A stretch of 42,283 bases of DNA from contig JAUNGJ010000025.1 in assembly GCA_030524585.1 (NCBI GenBank), positions 1-42,283 on the forward strand, given 5' to 3'. Origin of the DNA: Eubacteriales bacterium (GTDB taxonomy: Bacteria > Bacillota > Clostridia > Lachnospirales > Lachnospiraceae). Of this stretch, positions 3-14,036 are shown piece by piece; within the stretch, counting starts at the first letter, position 1; each line of letters begins with the position of its first letter. The translations under genes were made by a program, and so were the position numbers. The notes below the pieces were generated by a model. The model was not told the origin of the DNA, did no database searches, and worked only from the letters and a program-made list of their open reading frames with translations.

Positions 3-290
3 TATCGTGATATTGATACAGATATGGTTTATATTGATACGAATGCATTCAAGGAAGGTACCGTATTGTTAAAACCAGATTCCGGAGATACCTATACACT
101 GAAAGAGACAAAGTCTTTATCAGGTGTATATAATATAAATAAAGGATATGCCGTATTTCGGCAGATAGATATACTTTGCGAAAGTGAAGAGTATTATATT
201 ATCTCTACCGGAAATGATTATGGATTATCCAATTATGATCACATTGCACTGGACAGTGATACTGTCCTGGAAAATGATATTGTATTTTAA
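3..290 (+). CDS. C-terminal fragment, possible HlyD-like membrane-fusion protein
   Basis: The frame is open to the left edge of the window and ends at a TAA, so only the last 95 or so residues are visible; the true start lies outside. The fragment is beta-rich and acidic, with no transmembrane segment or catalytic motif. Its end lies 8 bases before the ylmE start, within whose ribosome binding site (gcggaggagtg) the intergenic space is used up, so the two genes are probably co-transcribed. In Lachnospiraceae a gene annotated as a HlyD-family efflux adaptor often sits directly upstream of the YggS/SepF cluster; that context and the barrel-like C-terminus are the only reasons for the call. It could equally be another cell-envelope protein. 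Confidence 0.45.
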   Translation, partial: YRDIDTDMVYIDTNAFKEGTVLLKPDSGDTYTLKETKSLSGVYNINKGYAVFRQIDILCESEEYYIISTGNDYGLSNYDHIALDSDTVLENDIVF

Positions 291-298
291 GCGGAGGA

Positions 299-997
299 GT
301 GAATAATATGCTGAAGAATAATTTTGATGAAGTTGAAGCCAGAATCCAGGCTGCCTGCGCGCGCAGCGGAAGAAAGAGGGAAGAAATCACCCTTATTGCC
401 GTAAGCAAAACCAAACCGGTGGAAATGCTTCAGGAAGCTTATGATTTTGGAACCAGAATATTTGGAGAAAATAAAGTGCAGGAGATTGTTGATAAATATG
501 AGGTGCTTCCAAAGGATATTTCCTGGCATATGATCGGTCATCTTCAACGAAATAAGGTAAAATATATTGTTGATAAAGTGAAATTAATCCATTCCGTTGA
601 TTCTCTGCGATTAGCAGAGGCAATTGAAAAAGAGGCTGCAAAAAGGGATATTATTGTGGATATTTTAATAGAAGTCAACGCTGCTAAGGAAGACACCAAA
701 TTTGGCGTGATGCCTGAAGAGGCAGAAGATTTAGTTTCAGAAATCGCACTTCTTCCCCACATAAGAATCATGGGATTGATGACGATTGCCCCTTTTGTGG
801 AAAATCCCGAAGAAAATCGTATATATTTTCAGCGTTTACGTAAATTAGCTGTTGACATTGACGAAAAAAAGTCAGATAATGTTAATATGAGTATACTTTC
901 TATGGGTATGACTAATGACTATGAGGTTGCAATTGAAGAGGGTGCTACTATGGTCCGTGTAGGAACCGGACTATTTGGCGCGCGTAATTACACTTAA
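299..997 (+). CDS. yggS: YggS/YlmE family pyridoxal phosphate-binding protein
   Basis: A 232-residue, single-domain alanine-racemase-like TIM barrel. The PLP-anchoring lysine is Lys37 in AVSKTKPV, and the phosphate-binding end carries SMGMTNDYEVAIEEGATMVR followed by VGTGLFG, both family signatures. Members of this family (PLPBP/YggS) bind PLP and control vitamin B6 and amino-acid homeostasis without a known catalytic reaction. The length matches the family (about 230). It is the first complete gene of a cluster with sepF and ylmH, the same order as ylmE-ylmF-ylmH of Bacillus. A second in-frame ATG lies 9 bases downstream (Met4); gcggaggag sits just before the first start, so the exact initiator is uncertain by three codons. 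Confidence 0.95.
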   Translation: MNNMLKNNFDEVEARIQAACARSGRKREEITLIAVSKTKPVEMLQEAYDFGTRIFGENKVQEIVDKYEVLPKDISWHMIGHLQRNKVKYIVDKVKLIHSVDSLRLAEAIEKEAAKRDIIVDILIEVNAAKEDTKFGVMPEEAEDLVSEIALLPHIRIMGLMTIAPFVENPEENRIYFQRLRKLAVDIDEKKSDNVNMSILSMGMTNDYEVAIEEGATMVRVGTGLFGARNYT

Positions 998-1028
998 GTC
1001 TAAATAACGCAAGATAGGAGAATTAAAA

Positions 1029-1580
1029 ATGGGAGTATTAGATAAGTTCCTTGATATTATGAAATTGAGTGATGATGAGGATTACGAGAATGACGACTTC
1101 TTTGATGACGATTACGATGATGATTTTGATGAGAAGCCGGCAAAGAAAAGTCTGTTTAGCCGTATAAAGAAAGAAGAGTATGATGATTCCGATGATTATG
1201 ATATGCCAGATGACAGACCGGCAAGAAAATCTACAGCAGTAAGCAGCAAGGTGACTCCAATGCGTCAGCCGGCCAGAAGGGCAAATGTAAGTATGGAAGT
1301 CTGTGTAATCAAACCTACTTCTGTAGATGATGCACGGGAAATTTCAGAGACATTACTCAGCGGACGTACTGTAATTCTGAATCTGGAAGGTTTGGACCTT
1401 GAAATTGCGCAGCGTATTATTGACTTTACATCCGGTGCGACATTTGCAATTAGCGGTAATCTGCAGAAAATATCCAATTACATATTCCTTGTCACTCCGA
1501 CAAATGTAGATATTTCCGGTGATCTGCAGGATTTGCTTGGATCATCCTTTGATGCATCACCGATTGGCAGCAAATATTAA
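1029..1580 (+). CDS. sepF: Cell division protein SepF
   Basis: A 183-residue protein beginning MGVLDKFLDIMKLSDDED. The first 10 or so residues form the amphipathic membrane-binding helix typical of SepF. Residues about 13-90 are a very acidic then basic, low-complexity linker rich in Asp. Residues about 95-170 form the conserved SepF core (DUF552), which polymerises into rings that bind the FtsZ C-terminus and tether the Z ring to the membrane. The start is preceded by gataggag. The stop overlaps the ylmH start by one base (TAATG), indicating translational coupling. The acidic linker is longer than in Bacillus SepF but normal for clostridia. Confidence 0.95.
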   Translation: MGVLDKFLDIMKLSDDEDYENDDFFDDDYDDDFDEKPAKKSLFSRIKKEEYDDSDDYDMPDDRPARKSTAVSSKVTPMRQPARRANVSMEVCVIKPTSVDDAREISETLLSGRTVILNLEGLDLEIAQRIIDFTSGATFAISGNLQKISNYIFLVTPTNVDISGDLQDLLGSSFDASPIGSKY

Positions 1581-2332
1581 TGAATAAGGAAGAGACCATG
1601 TTGCAGAAACGGCTGATAGAGCTCTCTCAGATAACCTATCGCCGTGATATTGTAACCTTTTCGGATTTTTTGAATTTGAATGAACTTCATATATTACATT
1701 CTACTCCGAAGAATTTATTGTCATCCCGCTATGAAACCTTTGGAGGTTATGAATATGCAGAGCGTCAGATGGTTGCTTTTCTACCTGATGCTCTTTATTA
1801 TGAGTATGAATATCCAATCTGTGTGCTGTGCATAACTCCCATAAACATAAAATATGCAGAAGATCTGACACACAGAGACTATCTGGGAGCAATACTGAAT
1901 CTTGGAATTGAACGCTGCAGGATTGGAGATTTAGCGGTTCAGGGACAAAACTGTTTTGTTTTCTGCCAGGAAAATATGGCAAACTATATCACAGAGCAAT
2001 TAACCCGGATCCGCCATACAGTGGTAACTGTAGTTCAGCTTAAATTAAATAATTTTTCTTATAAGCCTGATCTAAAAGAGACTACAGGAACCGTGGCTTC
2101 CGTCCGTCTGGATGCAGTGCCTGCAATTGCCTTCCCTATATCCCGCAGTAAGCTTGTGAACCATATAGAAGGCGGAAAAGTATTTGTAAATGGAAAGCTT
2201 ATTACGAACAACGGATATCGTCTGAAAGAGAATGATATTATATCGGTCAGAGGAATGGGAAGAATCATTTATGGAGGTATCCTCTCCGAAACCAGAAAAG
2301 GACGGTACCTTGTCAAAATCTATAAATATTAG
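1580..2332 (+). CDS. ylmH: YlmH-type RNA-binding S4-domain protein
   Basis: A 250-residue protein with a YlmH N-terminal domain (about residues 1-170) and a C-terminal S4 RNA-binding domain around residues 180-240 (ISRSKLVNHIEGGKVFVNGK and ENDIISVRGMGR). YlmH homologues bind the 50S subunit and take part in ribosome-associated quality control with RqcH-like proteins in Bacillus; whether this one does is inference. The start overlaps the sepF stop by one base, so translation is coupled. Unlike Bacillus, no ylmG or divIVA gene stands between or after these genes; lspA follows directly. Confidence 0.92.
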   Translation: MNKEETMLQKRLIELSQITYRRDIVTFSDFLNLNELHILHSTPKNLLSSRYETFGGYEYAERQMVAFLPDALYYEYEYPICVLCITPINIKYAEDLTHRDYLGAILNLGIERCRIGDLAVQGQNCFVFCQENMANYITEQLTRIRHTVVTVVQLKLNNFSYKPDLKETTGTVASVRLDAVPAIAFPISRSKLVNHIEGGKVFVNGKLITNNGYRLKENDIISVRGMGRIIYGGILSETRKGRYLVKIYKY

Positions 2333-2351
2333 ATGCTAAGAGGTGAAAAGG

Positions 2352-2867
2352 TTGAAAAATCTTTCAATAAAATTTAAATCATATGTTGCAGCCGGAATTT
2401 TTGTGGTAATCGGTGTTCTGCTCGATCAGTGGACCAAATCCCTGGCAGTTGCCGGATTAAAAGGTCAGAAGCCCATAATTCTGATCGATAAAGTATTTCA
2501 GCTCTGTTATCTGGAAAATCGGGGTGCTGCATTTGGTATATTTCAGAACCGAATTACATTTTTCCTGATCAGCACACCGATTATATTAATTATCATGATC
2601 TGGCTTTATGGCAGATTTCCGGAGGGCAAAAGGTATCTTCCTCTTCGAATCTGCAGCGCAGCTATCTGTGCCGGTGCAATTGGTAATATGATTGACCGTG
2701 TCCGGCTTGGCTATGTAATTGATTTTTTTTATTTTAACCTGATTGATTTCCCAATTTTTAATGTAGCAGATATTTATGTTACGGTTTCAACATTTGCACT
2801 GCTATTTCTTGTGTTTTTTTATTACAGGGAGGAAGACCTTGAACAAATATTTAAACGTAGAAAATGA
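2352..2867 (+). CDS. lspA: Lipoprotein signal peptidase (signal peptidase II)
   Basis: A 171-residue inner-membrane aspartic protease that removes signal peptides from prolipoproteins after lipidation. Four hydrophobic segments are visible (about residues 10-28, 66-87, 97-112 and 140-158). The catalytic pair is Asp124 in the GYVIDF motif and Asp140 in FNVADIYV, and GNMIDR precedes them as in the family. The start is placed at the TTG at 2352 because aagaggtga lies 6 bases upstream; a GTG nine bases earlier would be in frame but falls inside that ribosome binding site. The 3' end overlaps the rluD start by 29 bases. Confidence 0.93.
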   Translation: MKNLSIKFKSYVAAGIFVVIGVLLDQWTKSLAVAGLKGQKPIILIDKVFQLCYLENRGAAFGIFQNRITFFLISTPIILIIMIWLYGRFPEGKRYLPLRICSAAICAGAIGNMIDRVRLGYVIDFFYFNLIDFPIFNVADIYVTVSTFALLFLVFFYYREEDLEQIFKRRK

Positions 2868-3753
2868 AGAAGGAGTGCGTATCGACAAATATCTGGCAGA
2901 GGAACTGCCTGATATGTCCCGCTCACATATACAGAAATTGATTAAGGATGGGCATGTAATTGTCAATCAGAAGCCTGTAAAAGCGAATTACAGGCTTTCT
3001 CTTTATGACCAGGTAGAAATTTCCATTCCAGAGTTAAAAGAGCCTGAAATCAGGCCTGAAAATATTGCTCTGGATATTTTGTATGAGGATAAGGACATTA
3101 TTATTGTAAACAAACCTAAGCAGATGGTTGTTCACCCAGCACCTGGCCATTATTCCGGAACTCTGGTTAATGCCCTGATGTATCACTGCGGCTCCGAGCT
3201 GTCTGGAATTAATGGCATTATGCGTCCTGGTATCGTGCACCGTATCGACATGGATACTACAGGATCTCTTCTGGTATGCAAAAATGATATGGCGCATCAG
3301 AACCTGGCCGGGCAGCTGAAGGAACATTCTATAAAGAGAATCTACGAAGCGATTGTGCATGGCAATATCAGGGAGGATGACGGCACTGTAAATGCCCCTA
3401 TCGGAAGACATCCTACCGACCGAAAGAAAATGAGCATTCATGCAAAGCAGGGACGTCATGCAGTTACCCATTATAAAGTATTGAAGCGTTTTGGTTCTTA
3501 CACTCATATTCAGTGTGAACTGGAGACCGGACGGACACATCAGATTCGCGTCCATATGGCAAGTATCGGTCATCCACTTCTTGGCGATCAAATATATGGA
3601 CCTGCCAAATGCCCAATAAAAGGATTACAGGGACAGACACTTCATGCCAGGACATTGGGTATTATTCATCCACGAACAGGAGAGTATTTGGAAGTAAATG
3701 CACCCTTACCACTGTATTTTGTAAATTTAATTCAGACGCTGTCTAAACAATAA
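2839..3753 (+). CDS. rluD: RluD-family 23S rRNA pseudouridine synthase
   Basis: The TTG start at 2839 is chosen because agggaggaag lies 3-5 bases upstream and because the product then begins with the S4 domain expected of the family, giving 304 residues. Residues about 13-70 form an S4 RNA-binding domain (RIDKYLAEELPDMSRSHIQK). The catalytic aspartate is Asp137 in VHRIDMDTTGSLL; Ile replaces the more usual Leu in HRLD. RTHQIRVHMASIGHPLLGD is the second family signature. It isomerises uridines in the large-subunit rRNA; the specific positions cannot be read from sequence. The gene overlaps lspA, a very common arrangement (lspA-rluD) in Firmicutes. Confidence 0.95.
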   Translation: MNKYLNVENEEGVRIDKYLAEELPDMSRSHIQKLIKDGHVIVNQKPVKANYRLSLYDQVEISIPELKEPEIRPENIALDILYEDKDIIIVNKPKQMVVHPAPGHYSGTLVNALMYHCGSELSGINGIMRPGIVHRIDMDTTGSLLVCKNDMAHQNLAGQLKEHSIKRIYEAIVHGNIREDDGTVNAPIGRHPTDRKKMSIHAKQGRHAVTHYKVLKRFGSYTHIQCELETGRTHQIRVHMASIGHPLLGDQIYGPAKCPIKGLQGQTLHARTLGIIHPRTGEYLEVNAPLPLYFVNLIQTLSKQ

Positions 3754-3850
3754 TAGGATTCTCACATAATTATCTATGCATTTTCAGCATTATCGGTTAT
3801 AATAATAATAGATATTATGCTTAGTCATTATAAAAAGGAGCGTGATGTGT

Positions 3851-4495
3851 ATGGCTAAAACAAATACAATTATTACTATCGGCAGACAATTTGGAAGCGG
3901 TGGACGGGAAATCGGTCATATTGTTGCTGATAAATTAGGCATTAAGCTTTATGATAAAGAAATGTTGGAACGGGCTGCTAAAGACAGCGGTATCTGTCAG
4001 GAATTATTTGAAGCGCATGATGAGAAACCTACCAACAGTTTTCTCTATTCATTGGTAATGGATACCTATTCTTTGGGATATTCCGCAGGAAGCTATACAG
4101 ACATGCCAATTAATCACAAGATTTTCCTTGCACAGTTTGATACGATTAAAAGGATTGCCACCGAAGGTCCATGCATTTTGGTTGGGAGATGTGCAGATTA
4201 TGCTTTGGAGGATAATCCGGATGTACTACGATTATTTATTCATGCAGACATGGATGCGAGAATACGTAGGATCGCCAGAATTTACGACCTCACAGATGCA
4301 AAAGCTAAGGAAATCATTCAAAAAACAAACAAAAAGCGTTCCAGCTATTATAATTATTATACTAATAAGCGCTGGGGAGATGCAGAGAGCTATGATGCCT
4401 GCCTGAACAGTTCTATGCTGGGATTGGAAGGGACGGCAGAAGCGATTCTCAAGCTGGTCGAGCTGAAAGAACGTGAAGGAAATAAGAAAATATAG
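3851..4495 (+). CDS. Cytidylate kinase-like family protein
   Basis: A 214-residue P-loop protein of the cytidylate-kinase-like (AAA_26) family. The nucleotide loop is ITIGRQFGSGGREIG near the N-terminus; ILVGRCADY in the middle and RIRRIARIYDL are the other family blocks. It is not the housekeeping CMP kinase, whose loop is shorter and whose CMP-binding insert is absent here; the physiological substrate of this family is unknown. Three starts are possible (GTG 3842, ATG 3845, ATG 3851); aaaaggag ends at 3840, so 3851 (spacing 10) is preferred over starts almost touching it. A TATAAT at 3798-3803 could be a -10 element, but its -35 is poor. The gene ends before a strong terminator. Confidence 0.85.
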   Translation: MAKTNTIITIGRQFGSGGREIGHIVADKLGIKLYDKEMLERAAKDSGICQELFEAHDEKPTNSFLYSLVMDTYSLGYSAGSYTDMPINHKIFLAQFDTIKRIATEGPCILVGRCADYALEDNPDVLRLFIHADMDARIRRIARIYDLTDAKAKEIIQKTNKKRSSYYNYYTNKRWGDAESYDACLNSSMLGLEGTAEAILKLVELKEREGNKKI

Positions 4496-4540
4496 AACGA
4501 TAGATTTATATGAAGGTCAGTGTCCTTCGCTCCGTGTACA

Positions 4541-4586
4541 AAAATCCGGGAAAAATCAGCATCAAAAGATTCTTCCCGGATTTTTT
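4541..4586. terminator. Intrinsic terminator, probably bidirectional
   Basis: A perfect 12-bp inverted repeat (AAAATCCGGGAA at 4541-4552 with TTCCCGGATTTT at 4573-4584) and a 20-base loop. The stem starts with an A run and ends in a T run, so it can terminate both the rightward cytidylate-kinase-like gene and the leftward pucR-type gene that converge on it. Confidence 0.88.
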
Positions 4587-4653
4587 GCGTCCTTTCATAA
4601 GGCTGCTGGATTTATGCTGCCAAAGCATCCAGAAGAAACTTCCATCACAGGCA

Positions 4654-6075
4654 TTACTGCAGAAGCAGGTAGGAGACCATCAGGTGTGACCGGACATCTG
4701 CGTTGTCGAGATTCACATGGATCAGACTATTGATGCGGTGGATCCGGTATTGCAGCGTATTTCTGTGTATGTATAATTCTTCCGCCGCAAGCGTCGTGTT
4801 GCGCTCGCATCTCAAATAGTAAAAAAGCGTCCGGGCAAGCTCCGTATCATTCTCTTTATCGTATGCAGACAATATGCCGATGGCAGGATGGATTAACTGC
4901 ATGGATGCAGTGGTTTCTTTCAGATGTTCCAGCAGGCAGTTCCAGGAATAATCAAGGCACAGACAGATGAGATCCCCGTCGGGAGCATAGGAAAGGGCAG
5001 ACTTCGCCTGATCAAGATAAACTGCCAGGTGATTCCAGTCTTTAAAAGGGAGGGAGACGCCACATCTTAGTTTCAGATTCTGGCTGATATAGAGGATTTC
5101 CTTTTTTGATTTTTCAAGCAAGGGCTCGCTTAAGAGCATAATAATGTGATCGTTCCAGTATATCATCTTACACCCCGGGATATACCGTCCAATCTGTGCC
5201 ACCAGGCTTTTGGCATTACCCCGCCCATCCATAAGCTCGAAATAGACGAGATAGTAATTGATGTCCGGTGTATTCCACCCGAGAGAGGCAAGTATCCAAT
5301 CCAGCCGTTTCTGGTCTACCGCTTCTTTATTCAGCAGCTGGGAGAATAAGCAGGAGGCCGTTTCGCCGGATTCTGGCTGGTTCTCCCGGTAAGCTTTCTG
5401 CAGTACTTCTAACAGCGTATGTGCCAGTTTTACATCGGTATCTGTCAGCGGCTTGCTGTACTCTATAATCTGGAAATGTAATGCAATCTCATGATTGACA
5501 TGTACCAGTCCGAGAATGCAGCGGTAATGCAGTTCCCTAAAATCCAGCAGAGTTGCCTCATTCTCCAGAGTCAGAATCTGATGATATGATGAAGCGCGCA
5601 GATTCCGAAGGCAGGAGATGGGGAGCATTCCATTCTTTACAATATCTTTCCAGAAATCGCGCAGCGGGGCATCCGCATACTTCTTCGTATATCCCAGAAC
5701 CTTTCCCTGCCAGTTGGTAATCAGCATAGGATTCTGGAATACTTCTTCTGAGATATCAATAAGATTCTGGAAATCCGGGTTATTCCACACTCCCGTAATC
5801 AGTTTCTTTTCCCAGTGGTCGTAGAACTGACAGGCTTCTACCGCAAGTCCGCATACCTCTTCCAGCGAAATACCATAAAGAATGAAAAATGAACCCTGAC
5901 AGCGAAAACAGACAGAGGTATCATCCTGCCGGATTAAGGATAATATTTCCGGCCCATCAATCTGCTGTGTGCCAACACGGAGCGTCTCAAAGTGTTGATC
6001 CTTTCCTTCGATTTTTGTAATCTTATAACCTTTGGATGCGATAAATTCATGAACCATAGATAAATATAAAATCAT
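4654..6075 (-). CDS. PucR/CdaR-family transcriptional regulator
   Basis: A 473-residue regulator. The last 60 or so residues are the PucR C-terminal helix-turn-helix (HTH_30), with the characteristic AAEELYIHRNTLQYRIHRI. The middle (about 270-400) resembles the GGDEF-like CdaR sensor domain, and the N-terminal 200 residues are an unassigned sensing region with several Cys residues. Relatives activate catabolic operons in response to small substrates (purines, sugar acids). The ATG is preceded by aaggagatact. It is divergent from the lipoyl/flavoprotein operon, 183 bases away, with two inverted repeats in between, so it is very likely that operon's regulator. The ligand cannot be deduced. Confidence 0.88.
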   Translation of the reverse strand: MILYLSMVHEFIASKGYKITKIEGKDQHFETLRVGTQQIDGPEILSLIRQDDTSVCFRCQGSFFILYGISLEEVCGLAVEACQFYDHWEKKLITGVWNNPDFQNLIDISEEVFQNPMLITNWQGKVLGYTKKYADAPLRDFWKDIVKNGMLPISCLRNLRASSYHQILTLENEATLLDFRELHYRCILGLVHVNHEIALHFQIIEYSKPLTDTDVKLAHTLLEVLQKAYRENQPESGETASCLFSQLLNKEAVDQKRLDWILASLGWNTPDINYYLVYFELMDGRGNAKSLVAQIGRYIPGCKMIYWNDHIIMLLSEPLLEKSKKEILYISQNLKLRCGVSLPFKDWNHLAVYLDQAKSALSYAPDGDLICLCLDYSWNCLLEHLKETTASMQLIHPAIGILSAYDKENDTELARTLFYYLRCERNTTLAAEELYIHRNTLQYRIHRINSLIHVNLDNADVRSHLMVSYLLLQ

Positions 6076-6101
6076 AGTATCTCCTTACTGACTGTGCCTT
6101 C

Positions 6102-6120
6102 CTTGTTCAAAGTGAACAAG
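6102..6120. promoter_or_regulatory. 19-bp palindrome, candidate operator of the PucR-type regulator
   Basis: CTTGTTCA-AAG-TGAACAAG is a perfect 8-bp inverted repeat with a 3-base centre, lying 27-45 bases upstream of the regulator start codon and 32 bases outside the divergent promoter. No terminator-like T run follows. Its size and position suggest a protein-binding site, possibly for autoregulation; this is inference. Confidence 0.5.
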
Positions 6121-6151
6121 TGAATGGCGTGCTGGTTGTGCTTTGTGAATG

Positions 6152-6180
6152 TTGTAACAAAGTTGTAGTTACATTATACT
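6152..6180 (+). promoter_or_regulatory. Promoter of the flavoprotein-lipoyl operon with embedded inverted repeat
   Basis: TTGTAA (6152-6157), a 17-base spacer and TATACT (6175-6180) form a plausible sigma-A promoter about 72 bases ahead of the first gene's start. The inverted repeat TGTAAC (6153-6158) / GTTACA (6168-6173) covers the -35 and most of the spacer, and GTTGTA is repeated directly at 6151 and 6162; both are candidate regulator sites. On the opposite strand TATAAT (6178-6173) overlaps the same bases and could be the -10 of the regulator gene, though its -35 is weak. Confidence 0.6.
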
Positions 6181-6258
6181 ACAAATAACAGAAAAAATCG
6201 ATAAAAACTATCGCTTTTGCACAATTGTACTATGTTTAATTAAGAAAGGAGTTCAAAC

Positions 6259-7698
6259 ATGGAAACAAGAAAAAAGAAACACCACGAGCTTTATGATGCG
6301 ATTGCGGCGATCGTTGGCAAAAAATATGTGGTGGATGATGAGTTTGAGTTAATTCCCTACGCGCGTGATATCAGCTATTTTCATGGTGTCATGCCAGGAA
6401 TCGTTGTCCGTCCGGCTTCAACCGAAGAAGTTGCTGCAATCGTTAAGGTAGCAAACAGCACAAAATATCCAATCGTTGTAAAAGGCGGCGGCAATGCAGG
6501 TGGCGGAGTAACACCCGGAGAGCCGGGACGCAATATCATGATTGATATGGGACGCATGGATCAGATCAAGGTAGATATTGATAACTTAAAAGTAACCGTA
6601 GGCGGCGGAGCAAGGCTGAGTACGATTGACGATGCGTTAAGACCGTATGGATACTATACAAATACGGTTATCGGACCTTATTTTTCCGCAACAGCGGCAG
6701 GATTGGTATCTGGAATTGCAGGCGCAGGATTCAGTAAGAATGTATCTTCCATCGGATGTAACTGGACACAGATCATTGGTCTGAAAGTCGTTCTTCCAAA
6801 TGGCGATGTCATCACAACCGGAGCAGGTCCGTCTCAGAATGTCAACCGTGACGAGATCATGTTCCGGGAAGTGACGGGACCGGATCTGACAGATCTGTTC
6901 GTATCAAGCGGCGGCGCTTTCGGATTGGTTACAGAAGTGGTTCAGAAGATTGTTCCGATTCCAAAACATATGAAAGCAATCAGTTATCTGGTGCCGACGA
7001 TGGAAGATGTATGGGATATCTCGCTGGAGCTGAGCAGGATGGGACGCTGTCCATATACCAATATGATTATGTTTGAGATGTCCAATTACATGGTAAAGCC
7101 GATTGCTGGGGATACGGATGCGTACGGAGTTCTGTTATACTGTGTAGAATCTGACAGCGAAGCAGATATTGAGATCCGTCTGGGAGAGATTAAAGAAGTC
7201 TGTGAAGCACACGGAGCGGTTCATGGCAATGAAAAACTGGATTATTTTGCTCTGCACGGCACAACAGGTACGATGGAGATGGTACATGATGTGGGCGCGA
7301 ACTCCTGTCCATTCATGACCTGGGAGTCTATGTTCCCGCGTGCAACCTCCTTAAAGTATGCAAAAGGACTGATGGCGGCCTTCGCTTCCGTACCGGGACA
7401 TCGTGAGAATGCTACCGCAGTCGGAATGTATCTGGTACCAATGGGCAATGTATTCCTGATTGGCGCCACACTTCGTTCCGGATTCCAGACACCGGAAGCA
7501 GAAGAGCATCTGAGAAAGACCTGGGCGGCAGGAGCAAAATACATGCGCAGTATCGGAACCTCTTCCGCATATGGTCAGGGAACAAACTCACAGTATATTG
7601 CAGAATCATGGTCTCCTACTTATGCAAAGACAATGTCACTGATTAAGAAGGCACTGGACCCGAATGGCATTATGTGTCCGGGACTTTGGAATTTATAA
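6259..7698 (+). CDS. GlcD-like FAD-binding oxidoreductase (VAO/PCMH superfamily)
   Basis: A 479-residue flavoprotein. The FAD-binding PCMH domain covers about residues 45-225: VVRPASTEEVAAIVKVAN, the pyrophosphate loop VVKGGGNAGGGVTPGEPG, and GGAFGLVTEVVQKIVPIP. A FAD-oxidase C-terminal domain follows, ending KKALDPNGIMCPG, close to the usual LDPxxxxNPG. Relatives oxidise 2-hydroxy acids (glycolate, D-lactate, 2-hydroxyglutarate) or phenolic alcohols. I do not see the HxxDGNxH metal motif of D-lactate/glycolate dehydrogenases, so the substrate is open. aagaaaggag precedes the ATG. It is first in a six-gene operon, directly followed by the Fe-S subunit, as in glcD-glcF pairs. Confidence 0.87.
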   Translation: METRKKKHHELYDAIAAIVGKKYVVDDEFELIPYARDISYFHGVMPGIVVRPASTEEVAAIVKVANSTKYPIVVKGGGNAGGGVTPGEPGRNIMIDMGRMDQIKVDIDNLKVTVGGGARLSTIDDALRPYGYYTNTVIGPYFSATAAGLVSGIAGAGFSKNVSSIGCNWTQIIGLKVVLPNGDVITTGAGPSQNVNRDEIMFREVTGPDLTDLFVSSGGAFGLVTEVVQKIVPIPKHMKAISYLVPTMEDVWDISLELSRMGRCPYTNMIMFEMSNYMVKPIAGDTDAYGVLLYCVESDSEADIEIRLGEIKEVCEAHGAVHGNEKLDYFALHGTTGTMEMVHDVGANSCPFMTWESMFPRATSLKYAKGLMAAFASVPGHRENATAVGMYLVPMGNVFLIGATLRSGFQTPEAEEHLRKTWAAGAKYMRSIGTSSAYGQGTNSQYIAESWSPTYAKTMSLIKKALDPNGIMCPGLWNL

Positions 7699-7715
7699 AA
7701 AAGGAGGATATAAAA

Positions 7716-8882
7716 ATGCTCGAGAAATATAAGAATAATGTCAATGCATGCAGCCGCTGTGGAATGTGTATCGTAGGCGAAGCAGGCTATATCTGTCCGG
7801 TTCAGCAGCATACCGGCGGATTTGACCAGTATGTAGCCCGTGGAAGGAACCAGATTGCAAAGGCAGTCTTAAACGGCGAATTGGAATATACAAAAGAGAT
7901 GGCGGACAGCTCCTATACCTGTCTTGGATGCAATGCCTGTCATACCCAGTGTACCAGAATGGATATGAAAACGGGACAGCCGGGTTATATTGATGAAACC
8001 AAGATCCAGTATGCATTAAGAGTGGATCTGTGCAAGGCAGGCTATGAGCCGGAACCGCTTCAGGAAGTAGATAAGGCGATTGATTCTACCGGCAACCCGT
8101 TCGGCGAAGAGCCGTCCAGACGTGCCGCATGGGCGGAAGGATTAGACCTTCCTTCCAAGGGAGATACGGTTTACTTTGCAGGGTGTTACGCTTCGCTTCG
8201 CAACACCAAGATTGCCAAAGCAACCGTTGCAATCCTGAAAGCAGGAGGCATCGACGTGGCATACCTTGGCGAGCAGGAATGGTGCTGTGGTGTTCCGCAG
8301 CTTGCAGACGGTAACCGTGAGCTTGCAGAGAAATTAATCGTTCACAATGTAGAAGCATTGAAAAACGCCGGAGTGAAGCGGGTAATTACCTCCTGTGCAG
8401 GATGCTTCCATGCTATAAAGAGCGAGTATCCGGAGATTATCGGAGAACTGCCTTTTGAAGTGGTTCACAGCTCAGAAGTGATTGCAGACCTGATCGCAGA
8501 AGGCAAGATCACGCTGGATAAAGAGATTGCAAAGAAGGTTACCTATCATGATCCATGCCATCTCGGAAGACATGAGAAGGTATTTGACGCACCGCGTAAC
8601 GTGATTCAGGCAGTTCAGGGAATGGAACTGGTTGAGATGGAACGAATCAAGGACAATGCGGTATGCTGCGGCGGAGGCTCCATCGTATCAACGGCATTTC
8701 CGGAGCTGACCAAGGATATTGCCTCAGACAGAGTAAAAGAAGCCAAGGCTACGGAAGCAGACATGATCGTATCCGCATGTCCATCCTGTGAGAGCATCCT
8801 GACGCCGGGCGCAAGAAAAGCGAAGATGAAAGTCTATGACCTGAGCGTTCTGGTTGCAGAAGCAATGGGTATGAAATTATAA
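7716..8882 (+). CDS. Fe-S oxidoreductase subunit with two CCG domains (GlcF/HdrD-like)
   Basis: A 388-residue soluble protein; aaggagg before the ATG at 7716 decides the start. Two N-terminal [4Fe-4S] sites are visible: Cys12/15/18/27, where the last spacing is an unusual eight residues, and Cys69/72/75/79 (CxxCxxCxxxC). Two complete cysteine-rich CCG motifs follow: Cys157-X32-CCG(190-192)-X34-CxxC(227,230) and Cys281-X35-CCG(317-319)-X35-CxxC(355,358). In heterodisulfide reductase such motifs hold non-cubane clusters that split disulfides; in GlcF they carry electrons from the FAD subunit. The family place (GlcF versus HdrD/HdrB) cannot be settled by eye. Next to a lipoyl protein, a lipoyl-disulfide reductase role is plausible but inferred. 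Confidence 0.88.
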   Translation: MLEKYKNNVNACSRCGMCIVGEAGYICPVQQHTGGFDQYVARGRNQIAKAVLNGELEYTKEMADSSYTCLGCNACHTQCTRMDMKTGQPGYIDETKIQYALRVDLCKAGYEPEPLQEVDKAIDSTGNPFGEEPSRRAAWAEGLDLPSKGDTVYFAGCYASLRNTKIAKATVAILKAGGIDVAYLGEQEWCCGVPQLADGNRELAEKLIVHNVEALKNAGVKRVITSCAGCFHAIKSEYPEIIGELPFEVVHSSEVIADLIAEGKITLDKEIAKKVTYHDPCHLGRHEKVFDAPRNVIQAVQGMELVEMERIKDNAVCCGGGSIVSTAFPELTKDIASDRVKEAKATEADMIVSACPSCESILTPGARKAKMKVYDLSVLVAEAMGMKL

Positions 8883-8899
8883 AAAGGAGAATAAGAACA

Positions 8900-9298
8900 A
8901 TGAGCAGTTATGAAGTAAGAGCACTTCCATTATACACGAAAGAACATACATGGATGAAAACAGTTGGGAATGGGATCGTAAGAGTTGGTATTACGGATTA
9001 TGCCCAGAAGATGTTAAAGGAAATTAATTATGCAGAACTTCCTTCCGAGGGAGATGAAGTCGTACAGATGGAATCCTGCGCGGAGCTGGAATCCACAAAA
9101 GCAGTTTCCCAGGTATACTGTCCGGTAAGCGGCACAGTGGCAGCGGTGAATGAGGAAGCGATGGATGAGCCTTCCCTGATTAACCAGAATCCATATGATG
9201 CAGGATGGCTGATAGATGTAGAGGCTTCTGATCTGGAATCAGAGAAAGCAAATCTGATGACAGCAGAGGAATATAAGGCTTTCCTAGACACGATCTAA
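8900..9298 (+). CDS. GcvH-like lipoyl-carrier protein
   Basis: A 132-residue protein similar along its length to glycine-cleavage H protein: YTKEHTWMKTVGNGIVRVGI, then ITDYAQKMLKEINYAELPSEG, then ELESTKAVSQVYCPVSGTV, NPYDAGWLIDV and a C-terminal EEYKAFL. The lipoyl-lysine is Lys67 (ESTK, matching ESxKA of H proteins). It has an insertion-free biotinyl/lipoyl fold and some 5 extra N-terminal residues. No gcvP, gcvT or 2-oxoacid dehydrogenase genes are nearby, so it is an orphan lipoyl carrier tied to the redox operon. aaaaaggagaataag precedes the ATG. It could still serve a glycine-cleavage system encoded elsewhere, but the neighbours argue for a dedicated partner. Confidence 0.9.
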   Translation: MSSYEVRALPLYTKEHTWMKTVGNGIVRVGITDYAQKMLKEINYAELPSEGDEVVQMESCAELESTKAVSQVYCPVSGTVAAVNEEAMDEPSLINQNPYDAGWLIDVEASDLESEKANLMTAEEYKAFLDTI

Positions 9299-9307
9299 GG
9301 TGACAGT

Positions 9308-9343
9308 CAGAGCGGGAGGTTGTATAGAAGACTTCCCGCTCTG
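9308..9343 (+). terminator. Hairpin after the GcvH-like gene, weak terminator or processing stem
   Basis: CAGAGCGGGA (9308-9317) pairs perfectly with TCCCGCTCTG (9334-9343). Only ttatta follows, not a real T run, so it would terminate poorly. It sits between the first three genes and lplA and may set different transcript levels (partial termination or 3' end protection) for the catalytic and lipoylation halves of the operon. Confidence 0.5.
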
Positions 9344-9387
9344 TTATTACCATACTGAATTTCTGCATTAGCAGATGGGAGAAGAAT

Positions 9388-10377
9388 ATGAGACAGTTAA
9401 TTTATTATATATCGGAGCAGATGAATCCCTGGCGCAATCTGGCGATCGAAGAAGCGCTGCTTATGAAAGTCCCAAAGGATACGGTGATTCTGTATCTTTG
9501 GAGGAATCAGAGAACTGTGGTGATCGGAAGAAATCAGAACTGCTTTGCGGAATGTAATGTAAAATGTCTGGAAGAGGAAGGCGGATATCTGGCAAGGCGG
9601 CTTTCTGGAGGCGGAAGCGTATATCATGATGATCAGAATCTGAATTTTACATTTTTGGCAAATGCGGAAGATTACAATGTCGATATGCAGATGGAAGTGA
9701 TTCTAAGAGCAGTTAAGTCCTTTGGACTCAATGCAGAAAAGACAGGACGAAATGATATTACGATTGATGGAAGAAAATTCTCCGGAAATGCATTTTACCA
9801 GAATAAAGAAAAGTGTTATCATCACGGGACATTACTGATACATACCGATTCGGAGGTTATGAGCCGATATCTGAATGTGTCCGGTGAAAAACTTAAGAGT
9901 AAGGGGGTCGCTTCTGTTAAAGCGAGGGTTGTGAATCTGGGAGAACTGTCCCCTGAGATTACGGTAGAGACTATGAAAAAGGCGATGCTTCAGGCGGCGG
10001 AGGATGTCTATGGGATTGCTCCGGTAAAGGCAGATGCCGGGGTGTGTGATCAGGAACTGATTGCGCGTCTGGAAAAAAAGAATGCTTCTTGGGAATGGCG
10101 TTATGGAAGAAAGATTCCATTCACCTGGGAAAAAGAGAGAAGGTTCGCCTGGGGGAACGTGCATATCCGGCTGGACGTGAATGAAGGGGTGATTCAGCAG
10201 GCAGTCATATATTCGGATGCGATAGATGTAGAATGGATCGCAGCATTAGCGGACTATATGGTTCAAAAGAGATTCAGGAGTCCATTGGTGACAGAAACGC
10301 TGGAGACAGATATGACAAAAGAACGTAGTATGATTCTGAAAGATATTGAGTTGATGATGATGGAGGAAGAAGAATGA
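9388..10377 (+). CDS. lplA: Lipoate-protein ligase A
   Basis: A 329-residue full-length ligase with catalytic and C-terminal accessory domains. It carries RRLSGGGSVYHD (residues 70-81, lipoate/ATP-binding loop) and the catalytic-lysine motif KFSGNAF with Lys130, followed by HHGTLLI. It activates free lipoate with ATP and transfers it to lipoyl-domain lysines. No lipA or lipB is in the window, so the organism may rely on scavenged lipoate. Its position directly after the GcvH-like gene indicates that protein (Lys67) as its main target. The stop overlaps the next start by four bases (ATGA). The start ATG follows gggagaagaat. Confidence 0.93.
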   Translation: MRQLIYYISEQMNPWRNLAIEEALLMKVPKDTVILYLWRNQRTVVIGRNQNCFAECNVKCLEEEGGYLARRLSGGGSVYHDDQNLNFTFLANAEDYNVDMQMEVILRAVKSFGLNAEKTGRNDITIDGRKFSGNAFYQNKEKCYHHGTLLIHTDSEVMSRYLNVSGEKLKSKGVASVKARVVNLGELSPEITVETMKKAMLQAAEDVYGIAPVKADAGVCDQELIARLEKKNASWEWRYGRKIPFTWEKERRFAWGNVHIRLDVNEGVIQQAVIYSDAIDVEWIAALADYMVQKRFRSPLVTETLETDMTKERSMILKDIELMMMEEEE

Positions 10378-11765
10378 AACAGTATGATTTGATAGTAATA
10401 GGTGCTGGGCCGGCGGGATATGTATCCGCAATCCGTGCAGCCCAGTTGGGACTAAAGACCGCCATCGCAGAGAAAAACAGATTAGGCGGCACCTGTCTGA
10501 ACAGAGGGTGTATTCCAACCAAAGCCCTGCTGCACTCTGCACAAAGCTACGCCTCTGTTCAGGAGATGAGTGCGCTTGGAATCGAAGTGAAGGACGTGTC
10601 TTATGACATTCAGAAGATTCATGCAAGGAAGCGAGAAGTGGTGAAGACTCTGACAGATGGGGTAGAGCAGCTTCTGAAGGCAAACGGAGTAGACATCCTC
10701 TGTGGGCAGGCGAAGGTTACGGCAGCTGATACTGTTGAAGTGGAGGGCGTCTGCTATCAGACGGATAAGATCCTTGTAGCGGCCGGCTCCTATCCGGCAA
10801 AACCGCCGATCCCGGGTCTGGAGCTTGACGGCGTGGTTACCAGTGATGATCTGTTAGAGGGAACTCCTGTAGATTATCAGTCGCTCATCATCATCGGCGG
10901 CGGAGTTATCGGAGTTGAGATGGCCAGCGTATATGCGGCGCTGGGATGCAAGGTAACGATTGTCGAGGGCATGGAACGTATGGTATCTGTGCTGGATAAG
11001 GAATTTTCGCAGAATCTGAAGATGAATTTTAAGAAAAAAGGCGTGGACGTATTCCTGAATGCAAAAGTCACCAGCGTTGAAAAGTCTGACGAGGGACTGA
11101 CAGTTCATTTTGAATCCAAAGGAAAAGAACAGAGTGTTTCCGCGCAGGGAGTACTGGTATCTGTCGGGCGTAGGCCGAATACTGCGGGATTATTTGCAGA
11201 AGAATGCATTCCGGAGATGAACAGAGGCTTCCTTACGGTGGATCATCAATACGAGACATCCATCAAGGGAATCTATGCGGTAGGTGATGCTATCGGGGGC
11301 ATACAGTTAGCGCATAAAGCCGAGGCGGAGGGCCTTGCTGCGGTTGCCATGATGTGCGGACGGGAACCGGAGACGAATCCGGCCTACGTGCCGTCATGTA
11401 TCTATACGAGTCCGGAGATTGCCTCCGTAGGCATTACGGCTGACGAAGCAAAAGCGCAGGGGCTTGATGTGAAGAAAGCCAAATACCTGATGACTGGTAA
11501 TGGAAAGAGTATTATCGAAGGAGAATCGCGTGGATTCATCAAAGTGGTATTTGATGCTAAAACCGAGAAGATTCTTGGAATCCAAATGATGTGCGGACGG
11601 GCAACAGATCTCATCAGTGAATTCACAGGAGCCATCGCGAACGGGCTGACCAGAAGCCAGCTGCTTGCAGGTATGCGTCCTCATCCATCTTTCTGTGAGG
11701 GAATTACGGAAGCAATGGAAGCGGTCGAAGGAATGTCGATTCATTCTGCTCCGGTTAGAAAGTAA
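10374..11765 (+). CDS. lpdA: Dihydrolipoyl dehydrogenase
   Basis: A 463-residue flavoprotein disulfide reductase. The FAD-binding motif GAGPAG is at residues 10-15, the redox disulfide is Cys41/Cys46 in GGTCLNRGCIPTKAL, and the NAD-binding loop IIIGGGVIGVEMASV is near residue 170. The C-terminal catalytic His-Glu dyad lies in MRPHPSFCEGITEA (the common form is HPTLSE). It reoxidises dihydrolipoyl groups with NAD+. Here the nearest lipoyl protein is the GcvH-like product of the same operon, rather than an E2 of a 2-oxoacid dehydrogenase. Start overlaps lplA by four bases, so the two are translationally coupled. Confidence 0.93.
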   Translation: MKQYDLIVIGAGPAGYVSAIRAAQLGLKTAIAEKNRLGGTCLNRGCIPTKALLHSAQSYASVQEMSALGIEVKDVSYDIQKIHARKREVVKTLTDGVEQLLKANGVDILCGQAKVTAADTVEVEGVCYQTDKILVAAGSYPAKPPIPGLELDGVVTSDDLLEGTPVDYQSLIIIGGGVIGVEMASVYAALGCKVTIVEGMERMVSVLDKEFSQNLKMNFKKKGVDVFLNAKVTSVEKSDEGLTVHFESKGKEQSVSAQGVLVSVGRRPNTAGLFAEECIPEMNRGFLTVDHQYETSIKGIYAVGDAIGGIQLAHKAEAEGLAAVAMMCGREPETNPAYVPSCIYTSPEIASVGITADEAKAQGLDVKKAKYLMTGNGKSIIEGESRGFIKVVFDAKTEKILGIQMMCGRATDLISEFTGAIANGLTRSQLLAGMRPHPSFCEGITEAMEAVEGMSIHSAPVRK

Positions 11766-11805
11766 CAGTTAGAAAACATATCATAAAAATACAGGAGGAA
11801 ATACT

Positions 11806-13218
11806 ATGAGTAAAAAGTATGATGTAGTAATCGTTGGTGCTGGTTTGTCAGGCCTTGCAACTGCAGGTTATCTTGCAAAAGCGGGAAAAAGTGTCAAGAT
11901 TGTGGAGAAACTTCCTGTAATCGGCGGAAGTACGGTTCCGAATAAGATTATGGATTGTACGGTATCTATGATCTATCCGATTACGGCAAAACACAGCTAC
12001 GGCAATGCCAACGGCTGGGCAAAGGTTGCACAGGATTTCGGAGCGGACGTAAGAATGATGAATTCAGGAGCGCCAAGAGTCTTCTTAAAAGGCGGCGAAG
12101 AGGGCAGGAATGACTTCAAGATTCCACAGTGTCTGTCTCCGGAAGGCGCGGCAAAATGGATGAAGGACCTGCTTCAGGCGGCAAAACCGGAATTGGTAAC
12201 CGAGACAACCCAGGAAGAACTGGTTCCGATTATGCGGGAAATCTACGAGACGCCTCTCGAGAAGATGACGATAGATTGGGGCGAGATGTCAATCAAAGAT
12301 TGGATTGAGCCAAGAACCGAGGATGAGGGAATCCGTTATGTATTTAACGTAATGATGACGGCTTCTATCTTTACTGGAGATTATGATTATACATATAACT
12401 ACGGCTCTGTCGGAAAAGGTCTGGTGCTCCTTCGTATGTGGCTGGGCGGTGACGGACTAATGTCTGTGCCATATCCGAATCCACAGGAAGGAATTGCAAT
12501 TCCGATCGCAGAAGCGGTTCAGAACATGGGCGTAGAGATTGAATTGGGCGTGGATGTTAAACAGGTATTAATCGAAGATGGAAAGGTAACCGGACTACAG
12601 GTTGCAAGAGGAGAACAGGAAGAAGTTCTGACTGCAGATGATTATGTAATTGCAACCAGGTGGGGAGCATGGCCGGCGTTATTTAACCCAATGCCAGATT
12701 TCATGGCGAAGATTGTGGGAGAGATCATGAAGCCGGAACACATGATCGGAAGTGCATTCAAGACTTATTTCCTGGATGATAAGATTCCTTTGGATGGAGC
12801 ATTCTTCATGGAATTCGATAATAAAGGGGATGGATCGCATGTTCTGGGCGGAACTGCACAGAGTACGGAGCAGCCGTGGAATGCTGCGGAAGGCAAACAG
12901 TTTATCTGGGCATATCGTATTATGACAGCAGAGAAATACAATCAGCTTGGACAGGAAGAGATCGAAAAGCAGATGCACGAGGATATGGACCGGATGTTCC
13001 CAGGCTTCAGCGAACATCTGATATTCGAGACGCCATTTGGCGGACGTCTGGCTCCATCACACTATTTCTACAATTGCCAGCCAAAACTTAGGCATCATTA
13101 TGACGCTGTCGGGAATCTGTATTTCGCAGGAGACTGTACGGCTCCAATGTATAGTATGCTTACGGACGGAGCGGCAAGCACGGGAGAGATTACCGCAGAT
13201 ATGATTCTGAACAAATAA
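11806..13218 (+). CDS. NAD(P)/FAD-dependent oxidoreductase, phytoene-dehydrogenase-like
   Basis: A 470-residue flavoprotein with the dinucleotide-binding GAGLSGLATAGYLAKAG loop at residues 12-28, followed by an acidic beta-2 end (KIVEKLPVIGG), and a C-terminal FAD-contacting block NLYFAGDCTAPMYSMLTDGA. This layout is that of the amine oxidase/phytoene desaturase/carotenoid isomerase superfamily, which contains dehydrogenases, isomerases and saturases; substrate cannot be read off. caggaggaaat precedes the ATG. It is the last gene of the operon, 40 bases after lpdA and just before a strong terminator, so it probably acts on the same substrate or product as the first flavoprotein. It lacks any membrane segment. 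Confidence 0.85.
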   Translation: MSKKYDVVIVGAGLSGLATAGYLAKAGKSVKIVEKLPVIGGSTVPNKIMDCTVSMIYPITAKHSYGNANGWAKVAQDFGADVRMMNSGAPRVFLKGGEEGRNDFKIPQCLSPEGAAKWMKDLLQAAKPELVTETTQEELVPIMREIYETPLEKMTIDWGEMSIKDWIEPRTEDEGIRYVFNVMMTASIFTGDYDYTYNYGSVGKGLVLLRMWLGGDGLMSVPYPNPQEGIAIPIAEAVQNMGVEIELGVDVKQVLIEDGKVTGLQVARGEQEEVLTADDYVIATRWGAWPALFNPMPDFMAKIVGEIMKPEHMIGSAFKTYFLDDKIPLDGAFFMEFDNKGDGSHVLGGTAQSTEQPWNAAEGKQFIWAYRIMTAEKYNQLGQEEIEKQMHEDMDRMFPGFSEHLIFETPFGGRLAPSHYFYNCQPKLRHHYDAVGNLYFAGDCTAPMYSMLTDGAASTGEITADMILNK

Positions 13219-13261
13219 GGCGGCTGCCGGATCATAAAAAATGTAAACCGATCATAAGATC

Positions 13262-13303
13262 AAAAGGGATTGTCGGGAAATATTTTCCGATAGTCCCTTT
13301 TTT
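13262..13303. terminator. Intrinsic terminator, bidirectional
   Basis: aaaaggga...gtcggg pairs with ccgatagtccctttttt, with a few G-U pairs and a short A/T loop. A run of As on the left and of Ts on the right let it end the rightward lipoyl operon and the leftward ttcA-like gene, which stops right at its edge. Confidence 0.85.
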
Positions 13304-14036
13304 ATCTGGTATGAGGGATCCGTTTCGGCCATCCCTGAATATTCCCGTTTAGTATTGCAGTAAACATCCGTTGCTTTACGCCAGGATGTTCCCGGTTCAG
13401 TTCGGCCAAAAGTTCTTTTGCATACTGACGCTTGGTATAGCCGTCAATCGGACACCGGCTGCTTACAACCGGAAGCTGATACTTATTCTTAAAGCCAATT
13501 ACATCCGCCTCATCTACAAACATAATCGGACGGATAACGGTAAGCTCCATCCGGTCCAGATACGTCCTCGGCGAAAAGGAATAGAATCTTCCCTCAAAGA
13601 ATAAAGATAATATCATAGTCTCGATAATGTCATCCTTATGATGGGCATAGGCAACCTTATTACAGCCCATTTCCTTCACAGCCTGGTTTAAGGCGCCTTT
13701 ACGCATTTTCGCGCAAAGGGAGCAGGGATTCGTCTCTTTGCGCTCTTCAAAGAGGATATGGGCAATATCAGTCTTTACAATATGATAAGGCACATCAAGT
13801 TCTTTACACAATTCCTCAACCGGTGTAAAATCACATTCGCTGTATCCCAGATCTACTGTAACAGCGCTTAATTCAAATTTCTTGGGGTAAAAACGCTGAA
13901 GTCCCTTCAGAGCATAGAGCAGTGTCAGACTATCCTTGCCGCCGGAAATTCCTACTGCAATATGATCCCCTTCCTCGATCATCTGATATTCATCAACTGC
14001 TTTTCTTGTATAACTTAATAACTGCTGTAATTTCAT
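13302..14036 (-). CDS. ttcA: TtcA-like tRNA 2-thiocytidine biosynthesis protein
   Basis: A 244-residue ATP-pyrophosphatase of the TtcA/TtuA family. The PP-loop is SGGKDS at residues 31-36, with the preceding AVGI. A central CSLCAKMRKGAL gives the CxxC that ligates the Fe-S cluster with a third Cys (SSRC) near residue 190. Enzymes of this type thiolate cytidine-32 in tRNA (TtcA) or other positions; the exact target is inferred. It is shorter than E. coli TtcA (about 310), typical of clostridial members. It lies 10 bases after the tyrosine recombinase gene and is probably co-transcribed with it. Confidence 0.83.
   Translation of the reverse strand: MKLQQLLSYTRKAVDEYQMIEEGDHIAVGISGGKDSLTLLYALKGLQRFYPKKFELSAVTVDLGYSECDFTPVEELCKELDVPYHIVKTDIAHILFEERKETNPCSLCAKMRKGALNQAVKEMGCNKVAYAHHKDDIIETMILSLFFEGRFYSFSPRTYLDRMELTVIRPIMFVDEADVIGFKNKYQLPVVSSRCPIDGYTKRQYAKELLAELNREHPGVKQRMFTAILNGNIQGWPKRIPHTR

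Follow-up and report, generated by a model that had tools for sequence, protein, structure and literature searches.

The window analysed here is a stretch of 42,283 nucleotides (contig JAUNGJ010000025.1, positions 1 to 42,283) from a Lachnospiraceae genome (Eubacteriales bacterium, GCA_030524585.1; 2.8 Mb in 115 contigs, 91.8% complete). Six intact genes lie in a row on the forward strand between positions 6259 and 13218. A preliminary description of this DNA had listed their products as a GlcD-like flavoprotein, an Fe-S protein with CCG motifs, a GcvH-like lipoyl carrier, a lipoate-protein ligase (LplA), a dihydrolipoyl dehydrogenase (Lpd) and a further flavoprotein, and this row was confirmed using open reading frames (ORFs) and Pfam and NCBIfam matches. 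A divergent PucR-type regulator is counted into the same unit, giving a seven-gene cassette that is interpreted below as a candidate lipoyl redox relay. The features of the locus are as follows.

4496..13301: whole cassette, flanked by a cytidylate-kinase-like gene on one side and a PP-loop (TtcA-like) gene on the other (tblastn and blastn of the flanks against eight genus-mate sites, L158-L165; flank families by Pfam)
4540..4585: 18-nt inverted repeat with a 10-nt loop and AT-rich ends, resembling a terminator on either strand; it marks the left cassette edge, after the cytidylate-kinase-like gene and before the regulator
4654..6075, reverse strand: PucR/CdaR-type transcriptional regulator with a C-terminal HTH_30 domain, divergent from the operon (ORF, Pfam/NCBIfam)
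6076..6258: divergent intergenic region of 183 bp, presumed to be the promoter/operator
6259..7698, forward strand: GlcD-like FAD flavoprotein with a VAO/PCMH-type FAD domain and without the 2-hydroxyacid dehydrogenase His motif (Pfam/NCBIfam, motifs)
7716..8882, forward strand: CCG Fe-S protein with two CxxCxxC ferredoxin motifs and two complete CCG motifs (Pfam/NCBIfam, motifs)
8900..9298, forward strand: GcvH-like lipoyl carrier with Lys67, and with Thr17 and Gln71 at the places of E. coli Glu14 and Asp68 (Pfam/NCBIfam, alignment, tree)
9388..10377, forward strand: LplA-type lipoate-protein ligase, two-domain (Pfam/NCBIfam)
10374..11765, forward strand: Lpd with a redox CxxxxC motif, Cys41/Cys46 (NCBIfam, motif)
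11806..13218, forward strand: FAD flavoprotein of the amine oxidase/phytoene desaturase superfamily (Pfam; no listed NCBIfam equivalog reached its cut-off)

The six forward genes are separated by 17, 17, 89, -4 and 40 bp, and a Shine-Dalgarno-like GGAG was seen by eye ahead of all six starts. The CCG gene most likely begins at the ATG at 7716, 17 bp past the GlcD-like gene (the mechanical ORF start is 7674); this fits with the residues MLEKY, which also open two homologues. None of the seven genes of the cassette encodes a transporter.

Comparison with genus relatives supports the earlier treatment of the genes as one unit. The downstream PP-loop neighbour, TtcA-like by eye, was matched in ten of 11 genus genomes (own included); G303 gave no match, and the site of G305, with a match of only 34%, was left out. 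At all eight genus-mate sites fetched, the cytidylate-kinase-like and PP-loop genes are directly adjacent (tblastn and blastn) and the seven-gene block is missing. DNA similarity between these sites and the window stops at about 4446-4493 and restarts at about 13296-13326 inside the PP-loop gene. The inserted block of about 8.8 kb therefore comprises exactly seven genes, i.e. the regulator and the operon, in an otherwise conserved locus, and has a G+C content of 46.7% as compared to 44.0% for the rest of the window. As both flanks are syntenic with the genus, a contaminating contig is excluded. The occurrence of the seven genes as one block is the best evidence for a self-contained function.

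The lipoyl components were found to be an extra set, as had been claimed. A complete glycine cleavage system (GCS) operon is present on contig C70 (gcvT-gcvH-gcvP, the latter in two subunits, followed by lpd), with Pfam matches bearing out the T and P proteins. A second LplA is encoded on contig C67, in a stretch that also holds a 2-oxoacid-type E1/E2 cluster and the Lpd belonging to that cluster. The statement that GCS or 2-oxoacid dehydrogenase partners are missing holds for the operon and fails for the genome as a whole; equally, the gcvH on C70 removes the possibility, raised in the preliminary description, of a GCS without a gcvH of its own. Between the cassette LplA and its genomic counterpart, identity is 44%; for the cassette Lpd it is 51% and 42% to the two other Lpds seen in the genome, and for the GcvH-like protein 48% to the housekeeping GcvH across 103 residues. 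With a full GCS, a second LplA and two further Lpds available, the cassette copies are diverged and not needed for housekeeping. The LplA passes its family cut-off (TIGR00545, 343.7/280 bits) and has both the catalytic PF21948 and the C-terminal PF10437 domain, whilst the Lpd scores 506 bits against a TIGR01350 cut-off of 408.8 and keeps the CxxxxC motif at Cys41/46, as expected of a true Lpd.

The GcvH-like protein matches the Pfam GCV_H model with 134 bits, and the lipoyl lysine is kept at residue 67, in agreement with the earlier assignment. Its residues were compared in an alignment of 36 rows (own GcvH, 29 same-family sequences including that of an orphan locus, L030, three from other phyla and three PDB fragments). 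Thr17 stands where 34 of the 36 rows carry Glu, Gln71 where 31 carry Asp, and Lys40-Glu41 replaces a Gly-Asp pair conserved in 35 and 32 rows, respectively. Equivalents of E. coli Glu12 (here Glu15), His13, Ser67 and Tyr70 are kept and those of Glu14 and Asp68 are lost, leaving the set of acidic arm-contacting residues (i.e. Glu12, Glu14 and Asp68) incomplete. The protein is also neither encoded with gcvP/gcvT nor the sole GcvH of its genome. In simulations of E. coli GcvH (PMC7733448), the aminomethyl arm is locked in its cavity by Glu-12 and Glu-14, and its release involves Ser-67, an aspartate numbered both 68 and 69, and Tyr-70. Loss of the Glu14 and Asp68 equivalents is suggestive, short of proof, of a lipoyl carrier that would no longer serve the aminomethyl step.

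The GlcD-like protein contains FAD_binding_4 and FAD-oxidase_C domains and scored 84 bits against the GlcD model TIGR00387, below its cut-off of 567.9. The GHxGDGNxH and GEHGxG motifs, which we take to be the metal- and substrate-binding motifs of D-2-hydroxyacid dehydrogenases, are both missing, with YLVPM-GNVFLI standing in place of the former. For comparison, 74 GlcD neighbourhoods (5-17 kb; 14 plus 60) were taken from matches across the phylum. Among the 74 Bacillota GlcD-like proteins, the full GHxGDGNxH was present in 67, its HxGDG core in 70 and GEHGxG in 69; the core is missing in L067, L071, L074 and L080, as in the window protein. The earlier label of a hydroxyacid-oxidase-like protein was not upheld, and such an identity was rejected in view of the missing His motif. 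Phenol chemistry of the 4-cresol dehydrogenase kind was considered as a further candidate. PDB matches to 4-cresol dehydrogenase span residues 15-254 only, and the Tyr-Arg motif, presumably the active-site motif of that enzyme, was not seen by eye in the GlcD-like protein. The best GlcD match among the neighbourhoods was L067 (36% across 257 aa), and the best matches to the CCG protein were L080 (31%) and L067 (29%). These two loci (G688:C34 for L067 and G717:C80 for L080) share a cluster that holds, with names given by eye, a GntR-type regulator, zinc-type dehydrogenases, a xylulokinase-like kinase, a DhnA/LacD-like aldolase, a GlcD without the His motif, a CCG protein and an amidohydrolase.

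The CCG protein consists of a Fer4_8 domain and two CCG stretches, whose motifs are both complete as previously reported (C171-C204C205-C241xxC244 and C295-C331C332-C369xxC372, in the numbering of the 402-aa ORF). A CCG gene was found in 62 of the 74 GlcD neighbourhoods; in 60 of these it shares the strand of GlcD and lies <300 bp from it. Completeness of the motifs had been taken as a sign of disulfide chemistry and was rejected as proof of it, both motifs being present in 9/13 CCG-type proteins of the first 14 neighbourhoods and in 45/62 best CCG proteins over all 74. TfrB was the top NCBIfam match (179.9-181.3 bits, cut-off 385 not reached) and was likewise rejected as a special feature, as all six other GlcD-partner proteins scanned scored higher. 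Neither feature alone indicates disulfide chemistry. Two larger CCG relatives were observed near GlcD-like genes, one with two complete motifs (L077, 10929-13073, 715 aa stop to stop) and one with no complete motif (L079, 6101-8035, 645 aa stop to stop). The last flavoprotein is of the Amino_oxidase/phytoene-desaturase type by Pfam. An anti-phage role was also considered and rejected, a PADLOC scan of five of the seven cassette proteins having given a single weak and partial hit, to a desaturase model.

The preliminary description had assumed a host that lacks quinones. No UbiA-type prenyltransferase was matched in the own genome (91.8% complete), as compared to 14 of 14 positive control genomes; this is consistent with the assumption and makes a quinone unlikely as the electron acceptor of the GlcD/CCG pair.

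The explanation that we consider best, and to which we give an even chance, is that the cassette was horizontally acquired, is presumably regulated by its substrate and encodes a self-contained lipoyl redox relay that joins the flavo-Fe-S pair to NAD(H). LplA would lipoylate Lys67 of the GcvH-like protein, whose lipoyl arm would act as a two-electron shuttle connecting Lpd (NAD+/NADH) to the CCG Fe-S protein. The [4Fe-4S] clusters of the latter would exchange electrons with the FAD bound by the GlcD-like protein, which may transform a substrate that is probably no simple 2-hydroxyacid. This substrate or its product may also be the target of the amine-oxidase/phytoene-desaturase-type flavoprotein. 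The net effect would be to connect a flavo-Fe-S oxidoreductase with NAD(H) by a soluble route that needs no quinone. Gene content, motifs, surplus copies, the discrete insertion and the changed GcvH residues are observed, and lipoylation, each electron-transfer step, direction, regulation and substrate are inferred.

The direction of electron flow bears on the nearest rival, which uses the same parts in the oxidative sense, i.e. the GlcD-like protein oxidises a substrate and electrons pass through the CCG protein and the lipoyl-GcvH to Lpd and NAD+. GlcD-type enzymes normally oxidise. The NAD couple lies at -0.32 V and the glycolate and lactate couples at about -0.09 and -0.19 V. Passages of PMC6067878 place the lipoamide couple at about -0.29 V, and Cao et al. 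propose there that Lpd reoxidises dihydrolipoyl groups with reduction of NAD+. The lipoamide couple is close to that of NAD and well below those of ordinary 2-hydroxyacids such as glycolate and lactate, so that transfer from a glycolate- or lactate-type substrate to NAD+ is uphill, requiring either a low-potential substrate or a chain that runs from NADH to an acceptor. The earlier direction, from a 2-hydroxyacid to NAD+, is thereby disfavoured for ordinary 2-hydroxyacids, and the GlcD-like protein also lacks the His motif of the enzymes that act on them. The oxidative rival is accordingly judged rather unlikely. Because the lipoamide/dihydrolipoamide couple is of low potential, the reductive direction of the relay, with NADH reducing the substrate as an electron sink, appears somewhat more likely than the oxidative.

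Several results weigh against the relay. These derive partly from distribution, which was examined in overlapping samples (sizes are not additive) holding one genome per species of one phylum. At E <= 1e-30 the GlcD query matched only the own genome among 11 genomes of the genus, 392 of the order and 291 of the class, and at E <= 1e-20 it matched 138 of 398 phylum genomes (own included), with a best non-self identity of 37% across 249 aa. None of the 74 GlcD neighbourhoods contained GcvH, LplA or a true Lpd (one weak Lpd match of 27%). Conservation of the gene order in relatives, on which the preliminary description had staked the relay idea, was found in no sampled relative, and the co-occurrence of GlcD/CCG and lipoyl genes stands at n=1. 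The GcvH-like protein passes the cut-offs for ordinary GcvH (PRK01202, 144/117 bits; TIGR00527, 132.8/115.85 bits) and keeps the Glu12 and Ser67 equivalents. In a GcvH tree, into which no LbpA sequences were taken, it lies on a long, weakly supported branch whose join to L030 is weak (76/61) and flagged as possibly false. To these are added the unspecific CCG motifs and TfrB-like score, and single-sequence structure predictions with a mean pLDDT (predicted local distance difference test) of 33-34, which gave no model of a protein or complex. The missing gene order removes conservation as evidence; the relay is not abandoned on that account, as the insertion is read as a rare block acquired by transfer. 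Taken as a whole, the earlier interpretation is partly supported.

Further searches gave a similar picture. The last flavoprotein matched the own genome alone of 291 class genomes (E <= 1e-20), and two further class searches around the nearest GlcD kin (four and three genomes) returned the known G688 match and then nothing. The GcvH query found matches in 48 of 299 family genomes (own included), with a best non-self identity of 52%. No GlcD or CCG gene was seen beside the matches at 29 loci (L004-L032, from 47 others, mostly with flanks of about 1.5 kb), L030 being the sole one with Lpd and LplA, and none of three loci in a separate GcvH contig scan held the cassette cluster. In viral contigs, no relatives of the GlcD-like protein (single and alignment query) or of the flavoprotein were found. 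A GlcD-type match was found in 385 plasmid records, at <60% identity throughout (<=26% among the 20 listed), and a match to the last flavoprotein in one (24%).

This distribution also bears on a second rival, in which two unrelated modules travel together, i.e. a GlcD/CCG pair (with or without the flavoprotein) that uses an acceptor of its own, and a surplus GcvH/LplA/Lpd set that still serves the GCS or lipoate salvage. GlcD-CCG pairs without lipoyl genes are common, as seen in the 62 neighbourhoods above; the GcvH-like protein exceeds the GcvH cut-offs; and the combined order was not found in any other sampled genome. Set against this, the genes of the two supposed modules are interleaved in a single compact row, with the flavoprotein after Lpd and a single divergent regulator, the genome's GCS is already complete, the acidic arm-contacting residues have been lost and there is no sign of a quinone to serve the GlcD/CCG pair. 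Two co-travelling modules are hence considered unlikely.

A second orphan lipoyl set was observed in another genome of the family (L073, G136:C90, positions 108-13569). This stretch encodes a thioredoxin-like protein, Lpd, a fusion of a DGC domain to GcvH, two DGC proteins, LplA, a thioredoxin, a DsbD/CcdA-type membrane protein, an ArsP_1 permease, an ArsR-type regulator, an SBF-type transporter (Acr3-like by eye) and an LMWPc-type protein (arsenate-reductase-like by eye). No glycine cleavage genes were seen by eye in it. This locus suggests that other members of the family use lipoyl carriers as partners in thiol redox reactions, and it was counted in favour of the relay.

Comparison with known systems showed partial likenesses. 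The sHdr/LbpA systems, as portrayed in passages of PMC6067878, share with the cassette a GcvH-like lipoyl protein that has a dedicated ligase and is genetically associated with CCG Fe-S proteins, and in sulfur-oxidising archaea Lpd is linked to hdr clusters. Their LbpA proteins, some archaeal ones excepted, have two conserved cysteines near the N and C termini (same source, in part), whereas the cysteines of the cassette carrier are only at positions 60 and 74 of 132. The seven genes also include no Hdr-like set or sulfurtransferases, the ligase is two-domain where the sHdr criterion is a single-domain LplA, and GlcD-like and desaturase-like flavoproteins are present instead. Membership of the carrier in LbpA was rejected, as end cysteines, hdr genes and a single-domain ligase are all missing. 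The same comparison bears on a third rival, in which the lipoyl arm bears a substrate (acyl, sulfur or another adduct), as in 2-oxoacid dehydrogenases or sHdr, beyond electrons. This is a known use of lipoyl arms and has the sHdr precedent of CCG proteins with LbpA (PMC6067878, in part), but no acyltransferase, decarboxylase, sulfurtransferase or TusA-like gene is among the seven and the LbpA cysteine pattern is missing, making a substrate-bearing arm improbable.

The SirTM operon resembles the cassette in having a GCS-independent lipoyl carrier and a dedicated LplA (GcvH-L/LplA2, with OYE and LLM) beside flavin oxidoreductases and, according to a section of PMC4518038, the OYE flavoprotein of S. 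pyogenes binds GcvH-L strictly when lipoylated. This binding and the archaeal linkage of Lpd to hdr clusters were taken as precedents in favour of the relay. The cassette differs in having no sirtuin or macrodomain gene among its seven, in possessing Lpd and the Fe-S CCG protein, and in a carrier closer to ordinary GcvH, with a match to PDB 5a35 of only E 5.8e-5. We assume that 5a35, a code that occurs once in PMC4518038, is GcvH-L. Membership in GcvH-L was rejected in view of the missing sirtuin and macrodomain and the weak 5a35 match.

GlcD/GlcF-type pairs with CCG proteins show the same succession of an FAD_binding_4 flavoprotein and a Fer4_8 protein with two CCG stretches; the cassette differs in its missing His motif, the attached lipoyl module and the lack of any quinone seen. 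In TfrAB of methanogens, a CCG subunit couples dithiol/disulfide chemistry to a flavin whose substrate is an organic compound. This provides a functional analogy, to which is added TfrB as the top NCBIfam match of the CCG protein; the cassette flavoprotein is, however, of the FAD_binding_4 type and not TfrA-like, and the predicted dithiol is protein-bound rather than coenzyme M/coenzyme B. Finally, the carrier resembles the H protein of the GCS in family model, Lys67 and a score over the cut-off, and differs in lacking two acidic residues and a P/T partner, in a genome whose GCS has another gcvH.

GCS-independent lipoyl carriers beside oxidoreductases are thus already known, and this gene combination differs from both sHdr/LbpA and SirTM. 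A description of such a system was not found in the open-licence literature searched. As the cassette is discrete, small and equipped with its own regulator, the relay idea is directly testable by expression. More speculatively, protein-bound lipoyl groups might constitute a class of mobile two-electron carriers in quinone-less anaerobes, connecting NADH (via Lpd) with CCG Fe-S/flavin oxidoreductases; the substrate might be organic, perhaps diet- or host-derived, and the cassette a portable module for xenobiotic metabolism or an electron sink. If the relay is true, it would provide one answer to the question of the electron partner of GlcD/CCG pairs in quinone-less bacteria, and quinone-less gut-type anaerobes would gain a soluble means of coupling NADH to unusual oxidoreductions.

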